The notes under the pieces were generated by a model. That model searched no databases, had not been told where the DNA came from, and worked only from the letters and a program-made list of their open reading frames with translations. A stretch of 16,067 nt of DNA from the NCBI GenBank assembly GCA_011053245.1, contig DRGS01000056.1:1-16067 (forward strand). The letters run 5' to 3'. Shown piece by piece: positions 2,470 through 7,097 of the stretch (position 1 is its first letter; each line of letters starts with the position of its first letter). This DNA comes from Phycisphaerales bacterium (GTDB lineage Bacteria > Planctomycetota > Phycisphaerae > Sedimentisphaerales > Anaerohalosphaeraceae). A program made the translations under genes and the position numbers.

Positions 2470-5400
2470 ATGTTTAGAACTTTGGGGTCACAAAATAACC
2501 GTCGTCAGAAATGGTTGAGCTTTCTTATTTGGATGCTATTGACCGTATTGTCAGGATGGACAATGGCCGATCCGAACGTACCTTTTCCTCACGATGCCGT
2601 TGATACGCCTTTGATCACACCCAATGGCGGTACATTCATAGATTCGGTTGTGGTAACTTTGTCTACCGATACACCTGATCCAAATATTTTCTACACCATT
2701 GATGACAGCGAGCCAAACCAATCATCAATTCTTTACGAAGGGCAATTTACTATCAGTGCCAGTACCACCATAAAAGCAAAAGCCTTCAAGGATGCCTTTC
2801 TGCCGAGTGACACAGCCTCAGCGATGTTTACGATCGAAACAACGCCGCCGGAAACAGTGTCTACGCCTTTGATCACACCCAATGGCGGTACATTCATAGA
2901 TTCGGTTATGGTAACTTTGTCTACCGATACACCTGATCCAAATATTTTCTACACCATTGATGACAGCGAGCCAAACCAATCATCATTTCTTTACGAAGGG
3001 CCATTTATTATCAGTGCCAGTACCACCATAAAAGCAAAAGCCTTCAAGGATGCCTTTCTGCCAAGTGACACAGCCTCAGCGACGTTTACGATCGAAACAA
3101 TGCCGCTAATTATTAGCAATGTACAGGTAACATCGAGTGATGTATCCGCCAATGTGAGATGGACGACCAATGAACCGGCGACCAGTACTGTATATTATGG
3201 TCTAACCAGTGACTATGGAGTCGAAACCGCCCTGACAATAACTAACGAACGCCGTTATTCATACGGTAATATCGGTCTGGTCTTCCATGGCAGCTATGTC
3301 GGCGATCTCGAGTGCTATAACAATCTCGTTCTCGGCCTCATTATTAACAACACAGGCGTAAATATAAACGCCGGCAACAACATCTGCTGGGACTACGAGT
3401 ACCCCAGCCCATTTAACTATAGCAACACTGCCCTGGGCAACTCCATCATTGCACATCCCAACTACAACATGCTTGAGCACGGCATGTTCGTTCAGGACCC
3501 GATCGACTTCTCCTGGCCGCAGGATCAGATCCGCCGGAAATACTGCAATCAGCTTTTTCAGGATTTTCATCTCGTGGAAGGTGCACCGGCTATTAACTAC
3601 GGTAACCCTGCAAAGCAGACCACAATGGGTATGGGCACCATTGACCCAAACGGCTTTATCCGGGATGATGGCATGCCTCGTGACGCCCTCAATCGCAGTG
3701 CAGGCGCCTACGAATTCAGTCCCATCCAGTTAGGTTACGAAGACGAATTGATATCTTTTACTATCCACGCCGACGATCCGGAAGTCGAGGCGATTACTTA
3801 CTCAGCTTTAACACTACCATCTGGAGCGATTTTTGATGAGATTACAGGCGATTTCGCGTGGATTCCCAGTGTCGGCCAAGCTGGTCAGTATGAAATTATC
3901 TTTACGATATATGGCGACACAGCTACTTACAATCGCAATGTCGTTATCATAGTCTACCCCAAGTATGTATTCCTGCCGGAGATCGAATCTGCAACCGAAA
4001 ATGCGATGACATACTATCTCGACGCCGTCAATGGAAACGACAACAACGATGGCTCAATAAACAGCCCCTGGAGAACCATGGGCAAGGCAACAGCACTTGG
4101 CGGCGGAAACACCGTCATCGTAGCAAACGGCCACTACGGCTCCCTTCGTGACAACAAAGCAAGGGGCGACTGGCTCACGATCAGGGCCGCCTCTGGAGCA
4201 AAACCTCGACTGTACAGCATCAACGTCGGACCGGGTATCTTGAACTGGGGCGATAAGGGTCCCTGGGCCACCACAGATGTTCGCCTGAGAGTTGACGGAT
4301 TCATTGTCACGGCCCCCGTCGGATTCAACGACTATATCGTAAAATCAATTGGCGGAAACTACTTCGAGATCCTTAACAGCACGATCGCAGGCTCGCCCAA
4401 TCCGGCAGGTTATAACAAAGGCTACTGGGATATCGACCGCTCTGGCGTCTTGGTGGTCGCAAATCACACAAAGGTCCACCGCTGCGATATTTCCAACGTC
4501 AAGCGAGGCATTGAACTGAAACAGATAGGCTACCCTAACGTAAACCATGTAGAAGAGATCACTAACAACTACGTTCATGACTGCTCGAATACAGGTATCT
4601 TCATCTTTGAGCAGGCTCGTGTAAATATAGAGTATAACCATATATATCGACAGCAACCCTACAAACATCAGACAGGTCCTGCACAGCACGGTTCGGGTAT
4701 CGGGGTTATCTCTCCGGAAGTATCCATTCGCTATAATATCGTGCATTCTTACGGCAACTCCGGCGGTATCAACTACTTCACAGTTCCCCCGTGGGACGGT
4801 GTAAACACCAACGCTATTATTGAAAACAATCTGGTCTATGACAGCGGCGGCATGCGTATCGCGGGCATCAAGTCCGGTTGTAAGGTCAACAACAATACCG
4901 TTATAGGCCACGATGATGCAAACGTAACTGTCGATAACAGCGATCCGACAACTGATCACAGTCTCATACTAACATACCTCGACCCTAATACAATCTATCA
5001 CTACCAAGTAATCTCAATTGATGGAAGCGGCAACATCGCTGAATCCAATGACTTAACGTTTACAACTAATCTGTCCAACACCACCGGGCAGCTACCAGTA
5101 ACTTTGTCTGCCGATACACCTGATGCAAATGTTCTCTACACCATTGATAACGGCGAGCTTGCAAATTACATTACATTTGATGTCGAATTTACAAGCGACC
5201 CAGATGCAGCAGGAATATTAGCTGTTTATTGGGATCAACAACATATAGCTGATATCGACGAACGGTACGCACTTGAAGGTGTTCAGGAATACGCATTTAT
5301 GCTTCCTTCGACCTATAAGACTGGTTTTTATTCTCTAAAATTCAGCATCGATTTTTTCTCATCTGTTGTTACCACTGTAACGATAAATAATATAAGGGCA

Positions 5401-5607
5401 GGTGTCGCAACCGCGGGATTCGACTATGTAATAGATGGTAAGATTGATCTTTCAGATTTTGCTTTCTTTGCGGCCAGATGGGCTGTTACCGGCTGCGATG
5501 AAACCAATGACTGGTGTCAAAGAGCTGACCTTGATCAGTATGGCTCTGTAGATCCAAACGATCTTATGATATTCACCCAGCACTGGCTTGAAGGGGCTAG
5601 CCTTTAA
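2470..5607 (+). CDS. Secreted mosaic beta-helix protein with dockerin-like C-terminus
   Basis: A 1045-residue exported protein, probably carbohydrate-directed. By eye: signal peptide 1-33 (RRQK, hydrophobic core, TMA then DP); two near-identical chitobiase-like (CHB_HEX/Fn3-associated) repeats at about 45-127 and 131-213; first half of a fibronectin-III domain at 214-259 (RWTTNEPATSTVYYGLTSDY); the closing part of a right-handed beta-helix at 262-416 (DFHLVEGAPAINYG, GAYEF); an Ig-like He_PIG domain at about 419-497; the opening and body of a beta-helix at 514-816 (YYLDAVNGNDNNDGS, NNLVYDSGG); the second half of FN3 at 819-866 (LDPNTIYHYQV); a truncated third CHB_HEX copy at 874-897; a beta-rich segment to about 975; and a dockerin-like EF-hand pair at 984-1042 (DLSDFAFFAARW, ADLDQYGSVDPNDL). 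The domain order is abnormal. The family resembles polysaccharide lyases or other beta-helix enzymes, but no catalytic residues can be assigned. It stands alone, with its own terminator. Confidence 0.9.
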   Translation: MFRTLGSQNNRRQKWLSFLIWMLLTVLSGWTMADPNVPFPHDAVDTPLITPNGGTFIDSVVVTLSTDTPDPNIFYTIDDSEPNQSSILYEGQFTISASTTIKAKAFKDAFLPSDTASAMFTIETTPPETVSTPLITPNGGTFIDSVMVTLSTDTPDPNIFYTIDDSEPNQSSFLYEGPFIISASTTIKAKAFKDAFLPSDTASATFTIETMPLIISNVQVTSSDVSANVRWTTNEPATSTVYYGLTSDYGVETALTITNERRYSYGNIGLVFHGSYVGDLECYNNLVLGLIINNTGVNINAGNNICWDYEYPSPFNYSNTALGNSIIAHPNYNMLEHGMFVQDPIDFSWPQDQIRRKYCNQLFQDFHLVEGAPAINYGNPAKQTTMGMGTIDPNGFIRDDGMPRDALNRSAGAYEFSPIQLGYEDELISFTIHADDPEVEAITYSALTLPSGAIFDEITGDFAWIPSVGQAGQYEIIFTIYGDTATYNRNVVIIVYPKYVFLPEIESATENAMTYYLDAVNGNDNNDGSINSPWRTMGKATALGGGNTVIVANGHYGSLRDNKARGDWLTIRAASGAKPRLYSINVGPGILNWGDKGPWATTDVRLRVDGFIVTAPVGFNDYIVKSIGGNYFEILNSTIAGSPNPAGYNKGYWDIDRSGVLVVANHTKVHRCDISNVKRGIELKQIGYPNVNHVEEITNNYVHDCSNTGIFIFEQARVNIEYNHIYRQQPYKHQTGPAQHGSGIGVISPEVSIRYNIVHSYGNSGGINYFTVPPWDGVNTNAIIENNLVYDSGGMRIAGIKSGCKVNNNTVIGHDDANVTVDNSDPTTDHSLILTYLDPNTIYHYQVISIDGSGNIAESNDLTFTTNLSNTTGQLPVTLSADTPDANVLYTIDNGELANYITFDVEFTSDPDAAGILAVYWDQQHIADIDERYALEGVQEYAFMLPSTYKTGFYSLKFSIDFFSSVVTTVTINNIRAGVATAGFDYVIDGKIDLSDFAFFAARWAVTGCDETNDWCQRADLDQYGSVDPNDLMIFTQHWLEGASL
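2604..2848 (+). repeat. 245-bp tandem repeat, copy 1
   Basis: This copy matches 2862-3106 with 7 substitutions in 245 bases (about 97%) and no gap; the copies are 13 bases apart (period 258). Each encodes one chitobiase-like domain (TPLITPNGGTFIDS to TFTIE). The high nucleotide identity, including synonymous sites, indicates a recent duplication or gene conversion. Confidence 0.95.
2862..3106 (+). repeat. 245-bp tandem repeat, copy 2
   Basis: This is the second copy of the domain-length repeat. Amino acid changes against copy 1 are few (V/M, I/F, Q/P, T/I, M/T, T/M). It runs straight into the first half of the FN3 domain. Confidence 0.95.
5098..5157 (+). repeat. Truncated third copy of the repeat
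   Basis: These 60 bases match 2653-2712 with 6 differences (90%), encoding VTLSADTPDANVLYTIDNGE against VTLSTDTPDPNIFYTIDDSE. Both ends of the domain are missing, so this is a remnant fused between FN3 and the C-terminal beta-rich segment. Confidence 0.85.
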
Positions 5608-5741: not shown

Positions 5742-7097
5742 TTACGTTTGAGAGGGAATTTGTTCTGTGATCAGGTCGTAGTCTTTTGTTGCTGTTACTT
5801 TTGCGTTTATGAATTGGCCGGGTAGGGCGGCGGGATTTTCTATTAGACATACGCTGTCGATCTCGGGGGCTTGGGCGTATGATCTGCCGATGGCGGTGTT
5901 TTCATTTACGCTGTCTACGAGGAGGGTTATGTCTGTGCCGATCTTGGCGTTGGCTTTTTCGAAGGCGATCTTTTGCTGGGCGAGCATTATTTTGTCGGCA
6001 CGGTGGATCTTTGTTTCTTCGGGGACCTGGGCGGTCATTTCGGCGGCGGGGGTGCCTTGTTCGGGGTAATATGTGAAGCAGCCGAGGGCGTCGAATTTGG
6101 CCCAGTTTACGAAATCGAGTAGTTCCTCGAAATCCTCGTCGGTTTCTCCGGGCAGGCCGGCGATGATCGTTGTTCTAAGGGCTACGTCGGGCATGGCTTT
6201 GCGGAGGCGGTCGATCAGGGCCATTGTTTTTTCTTTGCGATCGCTGCGCCGCATACTGCGAAGTATCCGGTCGTTTATGTGCTGGACGGGCATGTCGATG
6301 TAGTTTACGATCCTTTGGCTTGCGGCGATGGCGGTGATGAGTTGGTCGGATATTTCGGATGGGTAAAGGTACATTAGGCGTATCCATTTCAGGTCATCGA
6401 TGGTTTCGAGTTGGGCGAGGAGTTTTACGAGGCCGTCTTTTATGTTCATGTCGCGGCCGTAGTAGTTGCTGTCCTGAGCGATGATGTTGAGTTCGACTGC
6501 GCCGTTTGCGACGAGTTCGGCAGCTTCTGCGAGGATCGCGTCCTGGGGTTTGCTTCGGAAGTGGCCGCGGATCGAGGGGATGGTGCAAAATGCGCATTTT
6601 CGGTCGCAGCCCTCGCTGATCCTTAGATATGTCCAGTGGCGGGGGGTTATCAGGAGTCTTTCGGAGTCATCCATCTCGGTTTCGCCGGCGGGTTCGAGGT
6701 AGTTGCTGAACGATCCGGGGTTTTGCAGGGTTTCTTTTATGATCGACGCGATGTCGTCGCGCTGGCCGAGTCCGACGATGGCGTCAATTTCGGGTATCTC
6801 ATCGCGGAGGGCCTGGCCCATTCGCTGGGCGAGGCATCCGGTGACGATGACCTTCTTAATGTGTCCTTTTTTCTTCTGCTTGACGGCTTGTCGTATCTCT
6901 TCGAGGGCCTCTTCTTTGGCGGGTGCGATGAATCCGCAGGTGTTAATAACGAGGATATCAGTACTGGTAAGGTCGTTTGAGAGTATGAATCCGGCTTGTC
7001 CGATGTTGGCGAGCATCTTTTCGGAATCGACGAGATTCTTCGGACAGCCGAGGGCGACAAAGCCGACGCTTATTTCTTTATGTTCAGGTTTTTTCAT
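5742..7097 (-). CDS. rimO: RimO, ribosomal protein S12 methylthiotransferase
   Basis: A radical SAM methylthiotransferase that adds a methylthio group to a conserved aspartate of ribosomal protein S12, acting in the cytoplasm. 451 residues, normal for the family. The N-terminal cluster domain has C18 in ALGCPKNLVDSEKM (the CPKN form separates RimO from MiaB), C54 in NTCGF and C88 in TGCLAQR. The radical SAM motif is C164-x3-C168-x2-C171 in SEGCDRKCAFC. A TRAM domain follows at about 386-446. The start is placed at ATG 7097 because conserved sequence begins there; the longer frame to 7160 adds 21 unconserved residues. There is no SD, but TATAAT lies only 6 bases before the ATG. The last ~110 codons are duplicated at 2011-2336. 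Confidence 0.96.
   Translation of the reverse strand: MKKPEHKEISVGFVALGCPKNLVDSEKMLANIGQAGFILSNDLTSTDILVINTCGFIAPAKEEALEEIRQAVKQKKKGHIKKVIVTGCLAQRMGQALRDEIPEIDAIVGLGQRDDIASIIKETLQNPGSFSNYLEPAGETEMDDSERLLITPRHWTYLRISEGCDRKCAFCTIPSIRGHFRSKPQDAILAEAAELVANGAVELNIIAQDSNYYGRDMNIKDGLVKLLAQLETIDDLKWIRLMYLYPSEISDQLITAIAASQRIVNYIDMPVQHINDRILRSMRRSDRKEKTMALIDRLRKAMPDVALRTTIIAGLPGETDEDFEELLDFVNWAKFDALGCFTYYPEQGTPAAEMTAQVPEETKIHRADKIMLAQQKIAFEKANAKIGTDITLLVDSVNENTAIGRSYAQAPEIDSVCLIENPAALPGQFINAKVTATKDYDLITEQIPSQT
5759..6084 (-). repeat. 326-bp direct repeat, copy inside rimO
   Basis: This is the rimO 3' end that is duplicated at 2011-2336. The right end of the homology falls within codons for GCFTYYPEQ, upstream of the TRAM domain; the left end is 15 bases from the stop codon, after which the two sequences diverge. 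Confidence 0.85.

Follow-up and report, generated by a model that had tools for sequence, protein, structure and literature searches.

On contig DRGS01000056.1 of a Phycisphaerales bacterium (assembly GCA_011053245.1; the 16,067 nucleotides of the forward strand are here called the window), a single uninterrupted open frame of 1045 codons on the plus strand (2470..5607) encodes a secreted-looking mosaic protein of 1045 amino acids. An FN3 domain of this protein is split by an in-frame block that consists of a right-handed beta-helix and an immunoglobulin (Ig)-like domain, and this guest is circularly permuted. The order of domains is a signal-peptide-like start, two CHB_HEX_C_1 domains, FN3 part 1, the end of the helix, a He_PIG Ig domain, the start of the helix, FN3 part 2, a CHB_HEX piece and a dockerin-like tail. 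An original prediction, made by reading the DNA, had proposed the split FN3 domain, the open frame and the rotated helix, and all three were borne out by the comparisons described here. The N-terminus looks like a signal peptide by eye; the database entry for this protein (P0002) begins at residue 32 and is 1014 amino acids long, and there such a start would be lost.

The host domain was examined with Pfam profile PF16656, the FN3-like N-terminal domain of purple acid phosphatases. In the intact protein this profile matched in two separate stretches (33.5 bits, curated cut-off 30). FN3 part 1 (3121..3219, plus strand, perhaps extending to base 3237) matched profile positions 6-37 with 17.0 bits when the left part (bases 3082-3219) was searched alone. 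FN3 part 2 (4924..5067, plus strand) matched positions 48-93 in the whole protein and 54-93 alone (25.0 bits). When the halves were joined, a single full-length stretch was obtained (6-93 of 93, 36.6 bits), and the fn3 profile also scored above its cut-off (25.3 bits, cut-off 25). This is the domain-insertion pattern A1-B-A2, in which the host is split and is whole again once the guest is removed. The joined host (477 amino acids) was then used as a query; 133 proteins were found, and the best 120 of the 133 were compared by BLASTP. The join was crossed by 45 alignments in 28 of these proteins, many of which are CHB_HEX repeats laid over the join and were not counted. A continuous FN3 domain aligned across the join in at least eight proteins (P0036, P0040, P0044, P0074, P0078, P0087, P0115 and P0117). 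In eight FN3 domains located by motif search, the spacer between the YG and HS motifs was 12 residues in six, 11 in one and 13 in one.

The guest (3223..4923, plus strand, 567 codons; its edges slide jointly from 3220-4920 to 3238-4938) begins with the C-terminal part of the beta-helix (3229..3717, residues ~254-416), which matches P0003 from residue 345 onward and also P0131. The Ig-like domain follows (He_PIG, PF05345, 3721..3984, Pfam residues 418-488), and the N-terminal part of the helix comes last (4003..4923, residues ~512-818), with matches to DUF1565 and Beta_helix; all three lie on the plus strand. The Beta_helix profile (PF13229) gave 26.0 bits in the whole protein (cut-off 25.9) and 27.4 bits when the module was rejoined in its natural order. 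The closest long relative, P0003 (1592 amino acids), has the order helix start, helix end, Ig. Its residues 43-345 align with residues 515-820 of the window protein (71% identity, E 1.6e-143), and its residues 345-611 align with residues 253-507 (67% identity, E 4.5e-113). P0003 therefore matches both parts of the block in swapped order, and the rotated order is not due to chance. By sequence the two proteins form a circularly permuted pair, the first part of each matching the second part of the other.

A search with residues 262-816 returned nine proteins, including the window's own, and a profile search with the rejoined module returned 41. Together these gave a set of 47 homologues, from which the window's own entry was excluded. 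Only four have a named origin, three being planctomycete and one from marine sediment, which by itself would make a planctomycete host likely. The sediment protein, P0131, is a fragment of 376 residues that gives one alignment to rejoined positions 98-476 at 82% identity and spans the cut. In 35 of the 47 homologues a single alignment crosses the cut with at least 20 residues on each side, in agreement with the suggestion that the helix runs on from residue 816 into residue 262. When the helix parts were searched separately (E up to 1), both were matched in 34 of the 47, and the start preceded the end in every one of these 34; the other 13 were uninformative on order. The planctomycete and sediment proteins (P0003, P0131 and others) thus carry the same helix in natural order, several with an Ig domain after it, and the linear order of the window protein was seen in none of the 34. 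Since all informative homologues have the natural order, that of the window is derived.

We next located the cut, with L as the last residue of the left host part and R as the first of the right. The loop of P0003 and the commonest FN3 spacer both demand R = L+568. The summed ungapped score of the two rejoined stretches was 221.7 at this offset, and none of the 16 others between 560 and 576 exceeded 103.7, a contrast that is partly built in because the other offsets need a gap. Placing L anywhere in 250-256 gave nearly the same score (best sum at 251), and with L at 255 the rejoined helix aligned to P0003 with no gap at the cut. The boundaries lie slightly outside the residues first given (262 and 816). 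The insert comprises ~567 codons (1701 bases) and is in frame at both ends.

At the closing junction (3985..4011, plus strand) the Ig domain ends and is followed by SATENAMTYYLD; by eye this resembles the end of the P0003 signal peptide together with the helix start, SATASAATYYLN. A YYLDA-type motif occurs in 41 of the 47 homologues. In P0004 it is not at the helix start; by eye, ~30 of the remaining 40 have it directly after a signal-peptide-like stretch and ~10 after other sequence. This resemblance and the placement of the motif indicate that the module was joined in frame between the end of the Ig domain and the tail of an apparent signal peptide.

Codon composition shifts at the junctions. 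The two-fold C/T codons of the insert have C as their third base in 104 of 166 cases, those of the flanks in 47 of 125 (Fisher P 3e-5), a difference that had been noticed by eye between the insert and the FN3 halves. Seven other plus-strand genes of the window gave 24/72, 35/94, 36/101, 24/67, 16/35, 17/38 and 30/95. The minus-strand genes are equally rich in such codons (rimO 71/93, a DNA glycosylase-like gene 42/59), so the composition of the insert need not mean a foreign genome. The insert looks as much like an opposite-strand gene of such a genome as like foreign DNA. The shift would also be expected if the contig were a chimera made during assembly. However, the three junctions are all in frame, and neither domain lacks or gains more than about one codon. 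At the two insertion junctions no identical run of more than 3 bases was present in the 60 compared, and there is thus no repeat that would make an assembler join them. The database entry represents four member sequences on one contig, possibly not independent. We therefore regard an assembly artefact as highly improbable.

How did the arrangement arise? The reading that we favour, and think probable, is that the ends of a helix-Ig segment were joined to make a ring, which then broke in a helix loop and integrated into an FN3 gene. The donor DNA would have encoded, for a secreted beta-helix protein, everything between the mature N-terminus and the end of the first Ig-like domain. Closed head to tail and in frame, this segment would form a ring of ~1701 bases. 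A break in a surface loop towards the end of the helix would have linearised the ring, which would then have entered an FN3 loop of another modular protein, in frame and with no visible loss. The outcome is a domain insertion whose guest is circularly permuted. What we infer is the ring, how it opened and entered the FN3 gene, and that the permuted chain folds; the block order, the complementarity to about one codon and the open frame are observed. At the protein level the blocks are rotated about a single closing and a single opening point, as would be expected of circular-DNA-mediated duplication. The ring is the simplest reading, as a single insertion accounts for the block order and for a complete guest within an intact host. 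In the same way, the idea already put forward that a circularised helix-Ig module was cut inside the helix is supported, because a single insertion then suffices for the two sites to complement each other exactly.

The original prediction added that no described mechanism routinely yields this order, which is too strong, since both duplication (swaposin, PMC3320104) and circular DNA intermediates (PMC7450558) do so according to the available text of these articles. Permutation by duplication is the main rival. A tandem donor, helix-Ig-helix-Ig, could have yielded a linear fragment of one period whose ends lie at corresponding points of helix 1 and helix 2, and this fragment could have been inserted into the FN3 gene. 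It would give the identical order, the available text on swaposin gives the same model (PMC3320104), and the locus does carry tandem and dispersed short duplications (CHB_HEX at 97%, the rimO end at 93%). On the other hand, BLASTP did not show helix-Ig-helix in any of the 47 homologues; the two helix regions of P0004 are separated by other sequence. The closing junction, which by eye is like a signal-peptide tail, fits a single N-terminal helix, although a tandem duplication could include such a tail. A linear fragment of exactly one period also needs luck or selection. We consider this history possible but rather unlikely.

A third origin would have the module inserted in natural order, then doubled in tandem and cut back by two deletions, or two fragments of different helices united. 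Helix proteins of this family are common and modular. Yet both deletions must stop at the same helix position and keep FN3 whole, it would take chance for two fragments of independent origin to complement each other to about one codon, and both helix parts are near P0003 (71% and 67%). The suggestion of duplication followed by deletion therefore fared worse, as more coincidences are needed, and we think this origin very unlikely.

Several points weigh against the ring. Our searches turned up neither a donor gene nor an orthologue with an empty site, nor the DNA of any relative, so that ring closure and micro-homology are unreadable at the level of bases. Selection for a foldable guest could also give an exact permutation from a linear fragment. 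P0131 is one or two residues shorter at the cut; relatives vary there and FN3 spacers range from 11 to 13, so the exactness is only about one codon. The offset test was ungapped and so partly favours a single length. Finally, a structure prediction of the permuted module was uninformative for its first 255 residues (predicted local distance difference test, pLDDT, mostly <50).

For a relative with natural order the predicted structure is a single unbroken helix, and the cut falls in a loop of low confidence. The cut ends of the helix would adjoin each other in the natural fold. As neighbours they could sit together in the FN3 loop, letting the FN3 halves meet, and the Ig-like domain would become a tether between the two original helix ends. 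The permuted guest can probably still form one helix.

Several known systems resemble this one in part. The plant-specific insert of plant aspartic proteinases, swaposin, is likewise a circularly permuted domain within a host domain of another protein, for which the available text gives permutation by duplication as the model (PMC3320104). In that account there is one small helical guest, a tandem precursor and a plant host; here, in contrast, the guest has two domains, beta-helix and Ig, the protein is of bacterial type, the Ig domain links one helix end to the other and the searches revealed no tandem donor. Circular DNA intermediates, in the sections available, turn the block order A-B/C-D into B-A/D-C with unique closing and opening points, and their junctions show short indels or a homology of one or two bases (PMC7450558). 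They are proposed there in a few eukaryotes and described for large (over 20 kb) human segmental duplications (PMC7450558). The window protein shares with these the changed block order and the unique closing and opening points; unlike them, it involves ~1.7 kb inside one reading frame and the evidence is at the protein level. Inserted domains may be permuted too, as in some RNA polymerase inserts mentioned in the excerpt available (PMC13114784), where insertion and permutation also occur together in another host and guest. In the laboratory, a permuted beta-lactamase was put into maltose-binding protein and, by the part of the report at hand, both can function (PMC3214044); this is again a permuted guest in a host domain, made in vitro, whereas the present case is natural. 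The accessible part of an article on spontaneous bacterial rearrangements covers deletions, duplications, inversions and short repeats at joints, and does not mention re-inserted rings (PMC3411829). A limited literature search found no bacterial within-gene case of permuted insertion, which is not proof of absence.

Other parts of the gene and its surroundings were also examined. The two CHB_HEX_C_1 domains (2604..3106, plus strand; PF13290, 113 bits in two stretches) are encoded by DNA repeat copies at 2604-2848 and 2862-3106 that are 97% identical across 245 bases. A third piece of this repeat (5098-5158, 61 bases, 90% identical) is truncated and joined to the tail domain, a further mosaic joint. 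The dockerin-like end (5422..5577, plus strand) scored below the curated cut-offs for dockerin type I with both PF00404 (12.2 bits, cut-off 22.9) and NF041540 (17.6, cut-off 29). Elsewhere, two overlapping secretin-domain genes (PF00263; 7328-8986 and 8949-10793) share ~68% DNA identity and appear to be a tandem duplication. In the intergenic stretch 1780-2010, phrases like GACTGCGCTCAGGACAGGCAGG and CCCAGCCTGCGCTGGGATGACA resemble, by eye, dispersed intergenic repeats.

Before the gene lies a second copy of the rimO 3' end, 326 bases long (2011-2336; 93% identical, no gaps). The true rimO end lies after the gene (5759-6084) in the same orientation as the copy, and the gene thus stands between direct repeats 3748 bases apart, a layout that fits single-crossover entry of a ring. 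Within the helix start of the insert, identity to P0131 is 97% over 126 residues (4285-4662, residues ~606-731) and then 75%, a step reached in 0 of 500 shuffles; a step was also seen with P0003 (2 of 500 shuffles). In sequence the step with P0131 looks as if the two had recombined, or it may reflect uneven constraint. The repeats and the step fit a locus that copies and re-inserts short pieces, and are no proof of a ring. A bolder idea, which we hold to be unlikely, is that bacteria use small rings of coding DNA to shuffle domains, the rings re-entering open frames by illegitimate joining and producing permuted modules that stay in frame. The locus would then record two entries, a 1701-base ring in FN3 and a whole-gene ring of ~3.75 kb between the rimO repeats.

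The window protein is a natural counterpart of the permutation-plus-insertion libraries made by protein engineers, with host and guest both sequence-complete. Annotation by linear domain order can miss split or rotated domains, as Pfam gives only FN3 fragments in the intact protein. With this gene, the idea that bacteria shuffle domains by way of a ring intermediate can also be tested on a concrete example; for circular intermediates the available text of PMC7450558 names only a few eukaryotes.
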